NCBI RefSeq assembly: GCF_900182645.1
Contig: NZ_FXTA01000001.1
Coordinates: 806,001-870,000 of the forward strand
Source of the DNA: Flavobacterium resistens
GTDB taxonomy: Bacteria > Bacteroidota > Bacteroidia > Flavobacteriales > Flavobacteriaceae
Length of the DNA: 64,000 bases
Reading direction: 5' to 3'
Below are positions 9,768 through 14,082 of the stretch, piece after piece. The translations under genes were made by a program, and so were the position numbers. Position 1 is the stretch's first letter. Each line of letters begins with the position of its first letter. Under the pieces are notes generated by a model, which saw only the letters and a program-made list of their open reading frames with translations, ran no database searches and was not told the DNA's origin.

Positions 9768-10943
9768 ATGAGTTTACCAAATATAAAATTTAATATCTCC
9801 AGTAGTGGCTTAGGGCTTTTACAATCGGACATTCAGAAAATACCAGGAATCGTTTTGACTGGTTCAACTGTTACCGGATCAAACAAGGTTACTGTAGGCA
9901 ATTCTTATCAAATATTTTCACTTGAAGAAGCTGTAAATCTTGGTATAGAAGAAACCGGAACAAATGCCTTTGCTTACAAACACATCAAGAGCTTTTATGA
10001 TGAAGCAAAGAAAGGTGCTGAATTATGGTTTATGCTTGTTGCTTCAACAGTTACTTTGGAAGATCAAGCCGATTTAACCGAAAGCTTTGCAAAAAAATTA
10101 TTATCTGATTCAGGCGGTAAAATCAGAATCCTTGGTCTGTTGAAAAAATCAGGAACGACCGAAACCATTACAAACGGTCTTGATAATGATGTTCATTTAG
10201 CAGTTCCAAAAGCTCATGCATTAGCACAAGACTTCAGCGATCGTTATTTCCCTGTACGTGTCATATTATCAGGAAATAAGTTTGATGGAACAGTTGCAAA
10301 CCTTAAAGATTATTCAACAACTGAATATAATAAGGTTTCGATTCTAATTGCAAACAACGACGGCTCAAAAGAGGCTTCTGTCGGTTTAGCATTGGGAAGA
10401 TTAGCAAGTATTCCAACACAAAGAAAAATTAGCCGTGTAAAAGATGGTGCTGTAGAACCTTTTGCCGCATACTTTACAAATGGCGAATCGATTTCGACTC
10501 TTGACACCGCTTGGGATGCTATCGATACCAAAAATTACACGTTCCTTAGAAGCTTTGCAAATAAGTCCGGCTTTTACTTTACAGGCGATAAAACATTAAC
10601 CAAATCAACTGACGATTTCAACAGTCTTGCACGAGGTTTGGTAATGGATGAAGCTGTTTTGATCGCTTATACAACTCTTGTTGAAGAGCTTTCTGATGAA
10701 ATTCCCGTAACGGAAACTGGAACTATTCATCCTGCAATTATTAAAGGCTGGCAAAATTCAATTGAACAGCAACTAAAAGGGCTTATGGTTGAAGAAGGGA
10801 AACTTTCAGGCGTTAAGGCATACATCGACCAAAATCAAGACGTTTTAACATCTAACAATGTTGATGTACAGCTTCAGCTTTTACCAGTTGGATATAGCGA
10901 TTTCATAACTGTGAACATAGGATTCACAACAACACTTGAATAA
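9768..10943 (+). CDS. Contractile tail sheath protein (DUF2586-like)
   Basis: The product is 391 residues. It has the mixed alpha/beta layout of Bacteroidota phage sheath proteins: an N-terminal 'SGLGLLQSDIQKIPGIVLTG', an alternating beta/helix domain with 'ELWFMLVAS', a middle domain with repeated hydrophobic strands ('DRYFPVRVILSG', 'YNKVSILIANNDG'), and a C-terminal 'TSNNVDVQLQLLPVGYSDFITVNIGFT' strand end. The tube gene follows with a 1-nt TAATG overlap, the universal sheath-tube order. It forms the contractile outer tail and shows that this is a myovirus-type particle. Confidence 0.82.
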   Translation: MSLPNIKFNISSSGLGLLQSDIQKIPGIVLTGSTVTGSNKVTVGNSYQIFSLEEAVNLGIEETGTNAFAYKHIKSFYDEAKKGAELWFMLVASTVTLEDQADLTESFAKKLLSDSGGKIRILGLLKKSGTTETITNGLDNDVHLAVPKAHALAQDFSDRYFPVRVILSGNKFDGTVANLKDYSTTEYNKVSILIANNDGSKEASVGLALGRLASIPTQRKISRVKDGAVEPFAAYFTNGESISTLDTAWDAIDTKNYTFLRSFANKSGFYFTGDKTLTKSTDDFNSLARGLVMDEAVLIAYTTLVEELSDEIPVTETGTIHPAIIKGWQNSIEQQLKGLMVEEGKLSGVKAYIDQNQDVLTSNNVDVQLQLLPVGYSDFITVNIGFTTTLE

Positions 10944-11362
10944 TGGCAGGAACATACAAAAGTCAAAACTATTCTTGGAATGATATTTCAATAGCTTTTG
11001 GTGGTAGAATCGTTGAAGGTATAGAGGAAATCGAATACACTGCAAAACAAGAAAAAAACGTTCTCCGTGGTCGTGGTGGAAAAGGTCATAAAATCACAAG
11101 AGGTAACAAGGATTTTGAAGGAAAAATTACTTTATGGCAAAGCGAAATTGAGGCTATGATTGCCGACGCTCCTAATCAGGATCTTCTAGCCTTAAGCTTC
11201 GATATTATTTGGAGTTTTACGCCAAATGACGGTGGAGCAACAGTAACAGATGTTCTGACAACTTGTGAGGTTAAGGAATACAAGAAAGGAATGAAACAAG
11301 GAGATCAAAATATGCTTGTTGAATTACCGATTATTTTCCTTGACGTTAAACACCAGCAGTAA
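10943..11362 (+). CDS. Tail tube protein
   Basis: The product is 139 residues, the usual size of contractile-tail tube proteins. It is rich in beta strands, with 'ISIAFGGRIVEGIEEIEYTA' at the start, a Gly/Arg/Lys-rich loop 'NVLRGRGGKGHKITRGNKD' (about 39-57) that would face the tube lumen or the neighbouring subunit, and 'DFEGKITLWQSEIEAM'. It follows the sheath gene with a 1-nt overlap. The inner tube carries DNA into the host. A strong terminator hairpin lies just after it. Confidence 0.82.
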   Translation: MAGTYKSQNYSWNDISIAFGGRIVEGIEEIEYTAKQEKNVLRGRGGKGHKITRGNKDFEGKITLWQSEIEAMIADAPNQDLLALSFDIIWSFTPNDGGATVTDVLTTCEVKEYKKGMKQGDQNMLVELPIIFLDVKHQQ

Positions 11363-11388: not shown

Positions 11389-11423
11389 AAAAACCATTCT
11401 TTTTCGAAAGAATGGTTTTTTTT
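11389..11423 (+). terminator. Intrinsic terminator with TTCG tetraloop inside the tail operon
   Basis: CCATTCTTT (11394-11402) pairs with AAAGAATGG (11407-11415) around a TTCG loop, flanked by A's that extend the stem to 12 bp, and followed by eight T's. It stands between the tube gene and the chaperone gene, where it would lower expression of downstream tail genes relative to sheath and tube. Confidence 0.8.
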
Positions 11424-11441: not shown

Positions 11442-12026
11442 ATGAGTACAAAAAATATTGCAGTAATTGCAGCAGGTCAACCGACAATTACACCAGCTAT
11501 AATTGCAGAATGGAAAGAAAAACACGGAGCTGTTTACGAATTACCAGTTGATGACAAAACCGCTTATCTGCGTGAGCCAAAAATGAAAGATTTCAAAAGA
11601 GCTTTTACGGCTATGACCAACGGCGGAAATTTAGCCTTTGGTGAAGAAATGATCAATGTTTTATTTATTGGCGGTGATGAAGAGATCAAAACAAATGATG
11701 ATTACTTTCTTCCGGCACGTAAAGAGATGAAAGATTTCTTCAATTTTGATGAAGCTGAGATCGAATCAGAAGGCAACAATTCAATTATCACAATCGGCGA
11801 ATACAAATGTAAGGTGCGAATCATTACAAGAAATGATATCAAACTTGCTGAGAAGAAAAACCCAAGCGATAAGCCTTTCGTAACTCAGGAAAAACTTTTT
11901 GAAGCTGTATGCCTTGAAAAAGACGAAGCTTTTAATGATCGAGATAATGCATCGATTAGATTCCCATTATATCAGGCTATTGAGAAGTTGCAGAACAAAA
12001 AATTTGCCCTGCTAAAAAAGCTTTAG
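11442..12026 (+). CDS. Tail assembly chaperone, short form (gpG analogue)
   Basis: The ATG at 11442 gives 194 residues; a longer ORF from 11412 would begin inside the terminator hairpin and is unlikely. The position between tube and tape measure genes identifies the chaperone of long-tailed phages. The sequence includes 'DKTAYLREPKMKDFKRAFTA', a conserved layout in tail chaperones, and later 'LFEAVCLEKDEAFNDRDN'. It ends LLKKL just after an A-AAA-AAG slippery site at 12014-12020. The protein binds and protects the tape measure during tail assembly. Confidence 0.75.
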   Translation: MSTKNIAVIAAGQPTITPAIIAEWKEKHGAVYELPVDDKTAYLREPKMKDFKRAFTAMTNGGNLAFGEEMINVLFIGGDEEIKTNDDYFLPARKEMKDFFNFDEAEIESEGNNSIITIGEYKCKVRIITRNDIKLAEKKNPSDKPFVTQEKLFEAVCLEKDEAFNDRDNASIRFPLYQAIEKLQNKKFALLKKL

Positions 12027-12244
12027 ACGGGGCTGTTATTGATCCTCGTGACACCTCGTCTTATGAACTTGCTAATACAAGTCCTGAAGGAAAAATTCAC
12101 ATAAATATAAGGCTGTTTGATGCCTATTTAAAATATTATATGCACATAAGAAAACCTGAAAAACTGAGCGATTCTACTTGGTGTGAGGAAATTCAAAATC
12201 TGCATTTTATAAGAACAAAAGAAAAAGAATCCTCACAAAGTTAG
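11442..12244 (+). CDS. Tail assembly chaperone, long form by -1 frameshift (gpGT analogue)
   Basis: A -1 shift on the heptamer A-AAA-AAG (12014-12020) joins the 193 residues before the site to 74 codons of an open -1 frame that starts GCT at 12020 and ends TAG at 12242-12244, giving 267 residues. The extension begins ALDGAVIDPRDTSSYE and ends with 'NLHFIRTKEKESSQS'. It fills exactly the otherwise empty 223 nt before the tape measure gene and has no ATG near its start. Two-product chaperone genes made by frameshifting are general in long-tailed phages (lambda G/GT). Confidence 0.8.
12014..12060 (+). promoter_or_regulatory. Programmed -1 ribosomal frameshift site with stimulatory stem-loop
   Basis: The heptamer A-AAA-AAG at 12014-12020 is in the correct frame (CT[A AAA AAG]). 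After a 5-nt spacer, GACGGGG (12026-12032) pairs with CCTCGTC (12054-12060), seven pairs with one G-T, around a 21-nt loop. Site, spacing and structure match known bacterial -1 frameshift signals. The zero-frame stop TAG (12024-12026) lies inside the signal. Confidence 0.8.
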
Positions 12245-12249
12245 ATGTT

Positions 12250-14082
12250 ATGACTGCTTACGAATTCATGGTTAAATTAAAAGATTATGCCAGCAACGGA
12301 TTAAGGCAGATTGCTTCATCAGTTGGTCAGAGCGTCAACAATGTAAACAATTTAAATAACGGTCTTAATAATACTGTAAAGGTTTCCGATAATTTAAAAA
12401 ATTCTTGGAATAAATTAAAAAGTCTGGTCACTAGCATTTTTGCGATAACAGCGATTTGGTCATTTACTAATAAAGTCGTGGAGGCTCGGAGTGAGTATGA
12501 AAAATTTAATGCCGTATTAGTAAATACATTTCAATCGGATAAGGTTGGAGCAGCAGCTTTAAATATGTTGAATGACTTCGCTACTAAAACACCTTTTGCG
12601 CTTAATGAGTTAACCGGATCGTTCGTCAAACTCGTCAACCGTGGTGTACTACCCACTCAAGACGAAATGACAAAGCTGGGTGATTTAGCATCATCACAAG
12701 GAAAAGGCTTTGACCAGTTAACCGAAGCAATGCTTGATGCTCAAACGGGCGAATTTGAAAGATTGAAAGAGTTTGGTATTAAAGCTTCTAAAAGTGGTGA
12801 TATGGTCAAGTTATCTTTCAAAGGTGTTACAAAGGAAGTAAAAAACAATTCCGATGCCATTACAGAGGCACTTTTACAGTATGGACAAATGAAAGGAGTT
12901 GCCGGATCAATGGAAGCCGTGTCTAAAACATTAGGCGGCAAGATTTCAAATCTCGGTGATCAATGGAATACATTTTTAGTTCAGGTCGGAGGAGAATCGG
13001 GCGAAATATTTACCGGAGTACTGACAGTTTTGAGTGTTGGACTAGCTTTTTTAAGCGACAATTTAAGTTACATCTCAGAATGGTTTTCGATACTTTTTGA
13101 AATGATACAGCCTGTTATTATAGCACTAAGCGAATTTCTAAGAGTAGCTTTCGGCATTAATGAAGCAAGTGACGCTCTTGGAATGTTTGGAAATGCTATG
13201 GTTGGTGTTTTGCTTGTAGTGGACTGGTTAACAACTGGACTGAGAACCGTAATTGATATTCTTTCTCCTTTTGGCAGAGAGATATTAATAGTAACTGGTG
13301 CATGGTGGTTGTGGAATAATGCAATTGGAGTTTTTAACGCTTTAATGCTTGTCAATCCGGTTACTTGGATTGTATTGGGAATTATGGCTTTGATTCTTGT
13401 TATCGGAATGGTAACAAAATATACTAGCGGTTGGGGCGAAAGCTGGAAGCATACCGTTAACGGCGCAAAATTTCTTTGGCAGACTTATACCGATTACGTT
13501 AAACTCAACTTTACAGCACTGGTAAATACTTTAATGATTGGTATTGATAAAATTAAACTTGGCTGGTATAAATTCAAAGATGCCGTAGGGATGGGCGATT
13601 CAGGTGAGAATCAAAAAATGATCGCTCAAATAAACAACGATGTTGAAGCAAGAAAAAAAGCCATTTCAGACGGCTACAAAAAAATGCTTGACAGCGCATC
13701 AAAAGCCAAAAATGAATTTAGTCAGGTCGGGATCAAAGTTGATACTAACGGCATAAAAAAAGACTTCCAATCTTTAAAAGACCGCTTCAGTAATGCTGGC
13801 GGGAAAAAGGATACCGGAACAGGAGCTTATGACGATTATTTAGCAAAAAATAAAGGTTTGGCTGGTGGAGCTGGCAAAGGTACGGACACAAAGGACAAAA
13901 AAGATACTATCGTATCGGGAGGTTCTAAAATGACACACATAACGGTTAACATTGGCAAGCTTCAGGACGATACAAAAATCTTTGTTGAAAATACAGAGAA
14001 AGGAATTGAAAGCTTAGGCGAAAAAATTCAAGAAATGATTTTGAGAGCTGTCAATAGTGTAAACCAAATGCAAACTGACTAA
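12250..14082 (+). CDS. Tape measure protein
   Basis: The product is 610 residues. The N-terminal part (1-240) has the tape-measure domain pattern: 'YEKFNAVLVNTFQSDKVGA', 'ATKTPFALNELTGSFVKLVNRG' and 'FERLKEFGIKASKSGDMVKLSFKG'. The middle has hydrophobic stretches (about 250-390, for example 'VTWIVLGIMALILVIGMVTK') that could insert in the membrane during DNA entry. The C-terminus is Lys-rich and helical. By the usual 0.15 nm per residue it implies a tail of roughly 90 nm. It follows the chaperone gene, as always in such phages. Confidence 0.88.
   Translation: MTAYEFMVKLKDYASNGLRQIASSVGQSVNNVNNLNNGLNNTVKVSDNLKNSWNKLKSLVTSIFAITAIWSFTNKVVEARSEYEKFNAVLVNTFQSDKVGAAALNMLNDFATKTPFALNELTGSFVKLVNRGVLPTQDEMTKLGDLASSQGKGFDQLTEAMLDAQTGEFERLKEFGIKASKSGDMVKLSFKGVTKEVKNNSDAITEALLQYGQMKGVAGSMEAVSKTLGGKISNLGDQWNTFLVQVGGESGEIFTGVLTVLSVGLAFLSDNLSYISEWFSILFEMIQPVIIALSEFLRVAFGINEASDALGMFGNAMVGVLLVVDWLTTGLRTVIDILSPFGREILIVTGAWWLWNNAIGVFNALMLVNPVTWIVLGIMALILVIGMVTKYTSGWGESWKHTVNGAKFLWQTYTDYVKLNFTALVNTLMIGIDKIKLGWYKFKDAVGMGDSGENQKMIAQINNDVEARKKAISDGYKKMLDSASKAKNEFSQVGIKVDTNGIKKDFQSLKDRFSNAGGKKDTGTGAYDDYLAKNKGLAGGAGKGTDTKDKKDTIVSGGSKMTHITVNIGKLQDDTKIFVENTEKGIESLGEKIQEMILRAVNSVNQMQTD

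Follow-up and report, generated by a model that had tools for sequence, protein, structure and literature searches.

The window, a stretch of 64,000 nucleotides of Flavobacterium resistens (contig NZ_FXTA01000001.1), contains a contractile-tail prophage with terminase, Mu-type portal, head protease, sheath, likely tube, tape measure and baseplate genes. The part of the tail module considered here consists of the following genes and reading frames:

9768..10943, + strand, tail sheath gene (PHROG 907 tail sheath, 6.2e-43; PF10758)
10943..11362, + strand, likely tail tube gene (PHROG 4579 'tail protein', 3.1e-14)
11442..12026, + strand, zero-frame gene, an open reading frame for a predicted tail-assembly chaperone, short form, 194 aa
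12020..12244, + strand, -1 frame extension of 74 codons (12020-12241) with its stop (12242-12244), open in 41 of 41 loci
12250..14082, + strand, tape measure protein gene (several tape-measure PHROGs, best of these 5.3e-48)

The best PHROG of the gene at 10943-11362 is PHROG 9206 (1.7e-32), labelled 'major head protein', with 'tail protein' in second place; the gene likely encodes the tube, as judged by its position after the sheath gene. Pfam TMP_3 on the tape measure gene scores below the family cut-off. The zero-frame gene sits between these two, in the place of a gene of the lambda G/GT type, and an alternative ATG upstream, at 11412, would add 10 residues to its protein. Between the likely tube and chaperone genes, at 11389-11420, there is a hairpin of 14 pairs with a run of T behind it (-14.1 kcal/mol, z -5.0). 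It looks like an intrinsic terminator and could reduce the expression of the genes after the tube gene; when the region between these two genes was scanned for consensus terminators, nothing was listed, this hairpin included.

At its end the zero-frame gene reads ..GCC CTG CTA AAA AAG CTT TAG, and the elements of interest are these:

12014..12020, + strand, slippery heptamer A AAA AAG, of the form X XXY YYZ in the zero frame (sequence)
12024..12026, + strand, zero-frame stop TAG, one codon past the heptamer (sequence)
12025..12061, + strand, bulged 14-pair hairpin, likely the downstream stimulator (fold, covariation, synonymous-site pairs)

A preliminary description of this DNA had proposed a programmed -1 frameshift at this place. 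The sequence confirms that the zero-frame gene ends 6 nt past A AAA AAG (stop at 12024-12026), that the -1 frame ends 5 nt before the tape measure gene (stop at 12242-12244, ATG at 12250) and that a fusion would have 267 residues (193 + 74, counting the start at 11442). The -1 frame does have 74 codons after the slip, but it does not start exactly at the heptamer, as was claimed: it is open from 11984, ten codons upstream. The frequency of the heptamer was rejected as evidence, since its count on both strands of the window (76 vs. 81.4 expected) is at chance level. What goes beyond chance is the combination of the signal parts with their conservation, not the heptamer alone.

The site was compared across a close family of 41 distinct loci, the window included, which come from viral contigs and from one genome per species. 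The genome scan contributed 13 loci, namely ten from Flavobacterium, two from Pedobacter and one from Epilithonimonas. Eight contigs (L029, L033, L035, L044, L046, L048, L049 and L052) were dropped as duplicates, as was L041, a copy of L023; L001-L015 and most of L064-L088 are repeats of contigs already in the set and were left out. All 41 loci show the same -1 frame relation at the same codon, with the -1 frame open, and a shift close to where the first gene ends would be the way into the second frame. Of the 41 sites, 37 read A AAA AAG and the other 4 read G GAA AAG, a departure from strict X XXY YYZ. The zero-frame stop lies exactly one codon past the slip in 38 of the 41 and six codons past it in L047, L057 and L059. 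L186 and L194, from genomes of the window's genus, carry the same extensions as L016 (Flavobacterium sp. LC2016-23) and L020 (F. soyangense). L184 and L185, on one contig of a same-family genome, turned out to be two similar extension-like frames about 470 bases apart; only the first copy has a resolvable zero frame, which ends A AAA AAG ATT TAG.

The 7-bp stem given in the preliminary description, GACGGGG (12026-12032) with CCTCGTC (12054-12060), does pair, with one G-U, but it is only the outer half of a larger hairpin. As had been stated, this outer stem begins 5 nt past the heptamer, and canonical -1 frameshift signals have their downstream RNA structure at about 5-9 nt. The stretch 12025-12061 of the window folds into 14 pairs with one bulged C at 12033 (-17.0 kcal/mol, z -4.3; none of 200 shuffles reached this stability). 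The longer stretch 12000-12080 refolds to the same hairpin with a z of -2.2 and 5 of 200 shuffles as stable. Throughout the close family, the 45 nt after the slip have a median z of -3.8 vs. -0.6 for the stretch 75 nt further on (single-nucleotide shuffles), L056 being the sole close locus without a stable hairpin (z 0.6, above -1).

Covariation was analysed in 40 of the 41 close-family loci (38 distinct rows); L062, which has its own 10-bp stem, was excluded from the alignment (A3) for indels. The consensus 14-pair structure has 84.4% of its cells paired, as compared to 73.8% in shuffled alignments and 27.3-53.0% in a slid register, which leaves 15.6% of the cells in these 40 loci unpaired. 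Cells changed on both sides number 65 vs. 24.6 in the shuffles; further pair types are no more frequent than in the shuffles (20 vs. 18.9). Compared with the consensus, the fold of the window has its bulge one base earlier and does not form 2 of the 14 pairs. RNAalifold recovers ten of the hairpin pairs unaided. Two pairs, 12031-12055 and 12028-12058, join third codon positions of the -1 frame. The former is Watson-Crick in all 36 testable rows (GC 22, TA 9, AT 3, CG 2) and the latter in 27 of 36, against permuted means of 16.1 and 10.2, respectively; the observed values were reached in 0 of 20000 permutations. The permutation leaves the relatedness among rows in place, but parsimony on the zero-frame protein tree requires 9 state changes for 12031-12055 and 20 for 12028-12058, unpaired states included. 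This covariation at synonymous sites argues that the hairpin is selected as RNA.

The extension is also conserved as a protein, and all 41 loci encode the same domain in this frame. In an alignment of 13 sequences, 17 residues of its core never vary, and the conserved part starts at the slip. Past the hairpin, differences at codon positions 1, 2 and 3 amount to 17754, 11571 and 28289. The pN is below the pS in 820 of 820 pairs (41 loci), and the median dN/dS is 0.159 over 170 estimable pairs. These values indicate that the extension is under selection at the protein level. The preliminary description had named two things that would speak against it, namely relatives lacking the heptamer and stem and a -1 frame with no conservation as protein; the relatives keep both shift site and hairpin, and the -1 frame is conserved. 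The comparative evidence is clear for both layers of the overlapping signal, protein and RNA.

The zero-frame protein is likewise conserved across the 13 aligned sequences. Its N-terminal half matches PHROG 19076 (E 3.2e-20), the function of which is unknown. A Pfam search of the protein gave no match, and neither family library (PHROG, Pfam) names it a chaperone. When a model of low confidence (mean pLDDT 61.6) was compared with the folds in the PDB, nothing matched at E <= 0.001. The model of the extension has a mean pLDDT of 75.8 and consists mainly of two helices. As for annotated phage relatives, the matches of two human-gut records, themselves unannotated, extend over less than half of the zero-frame protein; one of the two also has a weak match to the extension (E 0.04).

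With the fused 267-residue sequence as a query against about 5.8 billion proteins, 229 homologues were found, of which 120 were listed. The listed homologues have lengths of 179-211 residues and cover 72% of the query at most; therefore, the long form is absent from everything listed. Gene callers would be expected to give this outcome, though these entries then provide no independent record of the fusion. The listed database entries represent the short form only, mostly as an unnamed or 'hypothetical' protein, and the present analysis likely supplies the long form that they miss. Two homologues, P0015 and P0032, are named 'Icc-related predicted phosphoesterase', which is probably a misannotation.

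We consider 12014-12061 to be a -1 ribosomal frameshift signal, with a probability of about 0.9, through which a minority of ribosomes would join the 193-residue predicted chaperone body to the 74-residue extension. Ribosomes would reach AAA AAG while the hairpin stands at the mRNA entrance and hinders them, and the tRNA-Lys on AAA and AAG would slip back one base. The shifted ribosomes would read on in the -1 frame to 12241; the unshifted ones would read CTT (Leu) and terminate at TAG. We infer the use of the site, the ratio of the products and the chaperone role. The last of these is predicted from the gene order (sheath, likely tube, this gene, tape measure) together with the two-product architecture. 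By analogy with lambda gpG, as described in PMC5009743, the short form would coat or bind the tape measure; the recruitment of tail-tube subunits would fall to the long form, as is described there for gpGT. The two forms would be made in a set ratio, as are gpG and gpGT.

The same long form could arise in transcription, if RNA polymerase slipped on the six-A run and the altered transcripts were translated normally. There are six consecutive A at 12014-12019, and for five distant loci with nine or more A (L161, L164, L171, L172 and L179) such slippage is a fair alternative. For the window we regard it as very unlikely because 4 of the 41 close loci carry G GAA AAG, with only four A (GGAAAAG). 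Many distant loci, moreover, have GTA AAG or GAA AAG, and a hairpin that lies at ribosome spacing past the slip and covaries at synonymous sites also speaks against an event in transcription. Re-initiation past the zero-frame stop, with the extension made as a protein of its own, is highly improbable. That stop does lie at the start of the extension, and an ATG, GTG or TTG falls among the first 20 codons of the extension in 10 of the 41 loci (3 of the 41 have an ATG within the first 30). In the remaining 31 no such codon occurs among the first 20, and the conserved region starts at the slip. In the window, the first ATG, GTG or TTG of the extension is codon 43 from the heptamer.

Stops after an A run are a common type of sequencing error, and a gene that was once a single frame might have decayed. 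The frame is broken at one and the same codon in all 41 independent loci, and both frames are conserved, which makes the probability of either negligible. A different kind of objection accepts the frameshift and assigns its two proteins to another tail or regulatory function. It agrees with the lack of a chaperone family match and of a fold match (low-confidence model). Such a function appears unlikely in view of the location of the gene between the likely tube and tape measure genes, and of the -1 extension ending at the start of the tape measure gene, just as in lambda G/T/H and P2 E/E'/T.

A -1 frameshift between two chaperone forms would not be without precedent. Two-product tail chaperones are described in PMC5009743, where the lambda extension has no initiation of its own. 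In lambda, the order of genes is tube, G, T and tape measure (annotation of J02459), the order in the window matches it, and in both the -1 shift, predicted in the case of the window, lies close to where the first gene ends. Lambda slips on G GGA AAG, and its zero-frame stop comes five codons later, whereas the window has A AAA AAG and one codon; a covarying hairpin distinguishes the family of the window from lambda. In P2, which has a contractile tail, sheath, tube, E, the -1 extension E' and the tape measure gene T follow each other (annotation of AF063097), which is the order of the module in the window. The slip site of P2 gpE/gpE+E' is T TTT TTG, and the stop comes six codons later, as compared to A AAA AAG and one codon here. 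No sequence relation of the protein of the window to the lambda or P2 chaperones was found. On the evidence of its sequence and gene order, the site belongs to the lambda G/GT-type kind of tail-chaperone frameshift already known from other tailed phages.

Escherichia coli dnaX, as described in PMC3711429 and PMC5009743, shares with the window A_AAA_AAG and a downstream hairpin. It is a cellular gene with a function unrelated to that of the tail gene, and it has an upstream Shine-Dalgarno-like element (PMC3711429), whereas a Shine-Dalgarno-like match of five or more bases upstream of the slip occurs in 0 of the 41 close-family loci. In PMC6316719, the SPP1 pair gp17.5/gp17.5* is described as tail chaperone forms related by a -1 frameshift and encoded ahead of the tape measure gene, the arrangement predicted for the window; SPP1 slips on UUUUUUC, and its proteins and hosts differ. 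For an HK97-like chaperone cluster of GeneTack, PMC3711429 gives -1 frameshifting of 6% and 7% in two tested genes, again with different proteins and hosts from those of the window. No paper on tail-chaperone frameshifting in Bacteroidota phages was found in the open-access literature searched.

Distant loci were reached by a search with the extension, and a profile (A4) was built from twelve of them. Of the 137 stretches of viral contigs that matched A4, 80 were taken; removal of 12 exact duplicates and of L146, which has no upstream sequence, left 67, and the addition of L098 gave 68 loci. Three of these (L147, L148 and L150) are close-family contigs, and without them 65 loci remain, which form 51 clusters at 75% identity. 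The A4 search of 395 genomes of the window's phylum gave 8 with a match, and among the 20 genome loci L182-L201 a credible zero frame was found in 9. In profile comparisons, the distant and close extensions match with E 9.6e-25. The distant zero-frame proteins, mostly about 100-120 residues long, align to residues 15-109 of the window protein (probability 99.6%, E 2.4e-24). Since they correspond to these residues only, the branch of the window seems to carry an additional domain immediately ahead of the shift site. This second domain, 11766-12011 in the window (residues about 109-190), directly precedes the shift site and is missing in the distant relatives of about 100 residues.

The distant loci share the placement of the slip. 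A_AAN lies exactly two codons before the stop, that is, A_AAN, one codon, stop, in 64 of the 68 loci, three of them close-family, the exceptions being L108, L109, L152 and L178. The same pattern is seen in 8 of the 9 resolved genome loci, with L192 (GGG GAA GTT TAG) as the exception. The P-site codons of the 68 loci are AAA (24), GAA (20), GTA (16) and others (eight), and the A-site codons are AAG (49), AAA (9), AAC (5), AAT (2), GAA (2) and GAG (1). A GTA codon in the P site re-pairs poorly one base back, and the slip would therefore rest on the A-site tRNA. In the five loci with long A runs mentioned above, the run is itself the shift site and lies just before the stop. A hairpin as a rule is unsupported in the distant loci: the 51 clusters have a median z of 0.15, with 10% of them below -2. 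L092 and L095 have 12-pair stems.

The distant loci point to a different candidate stimulator. In 10 of the 51 distant clusters, the 24 nt that precede the A-site codon contain a match of at least 6 bases to TAAGGAGGTGA; when windows were drawn 2000 times from the same genes, the mean was 1.3 and the largest value 6. In 19 of the 51, the distance from the end of GAGG to that codon is exactly 11 nt. The Glu codon of this motif is GAG in 21 of 28 cases vs. 8.4 expected from the usage of each gene; a nearby Glu position leans to GAG too (14 of 26, p 0.02), and part of the motif comes from conserved Lys-Glu-Ala residues. Because the 51 clusters are not independent, the upstream Shine-Dalgarno-like signal is a lead and not a result.

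A more far-reaching reading, to which we give clearly less than even odds, is that contractile-tail phages of Bacteroidota share a cassette of an A_AAN slip on one tRNA, one codon and a stop. Its stimulators would be interchangeable, either a downstream hairpin, as in the branch of the window, or an upstream AAGGAGG 11 nt before the A-site codon, where the normally occluded anti-Shine-Dalgarno would act on elongating ribosomes. Two features of the family are unusual and might be unexpected to a specialist: the near-fixed position of the stop, one codon past the slip, and the apparent replacement of the hairpin by a Shine-Dalgarno-like element among related phages. The second of these is only a lead. 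The wider family lends itself to a natural comparison, in which one branch apparently supports the frameshift with a 3' hairpin and another with a 5' Shine-Dalgarno-like element.

According to PMC8710568, the anti-Shine-Dalgarno of F. johnsoniae ribosomes is occluded, and prfB frameshift sites with a Shine-Dalgarno-like element are common in the class to which the window's host belongs. If the upstream element acts as suggested, the question of the occluded anti-Shine-Dalgarno would become testable on a second kind of site besides prfB. In the account of PMC8710568, the action of the anti-Shine-Dalgarno in prfB frameshifting of Flavobacterium is only hypothesised. CCTCC is kept at the end of the 16S rRNA gene of the window's host, and the pattern was matched in 11 of 18 genomes; in the other 7, the source of L196 included, the gene may just be missing from the draft assembly. 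AAGGAGG, or GAGG 11 nt before the A-site codon, occurs in L101, L103, L104, L133, L196 and other distant loci without a hairpin. In L196, which comes from a genome of the window's genus, AAGGAGG is combined with GTA AAG.
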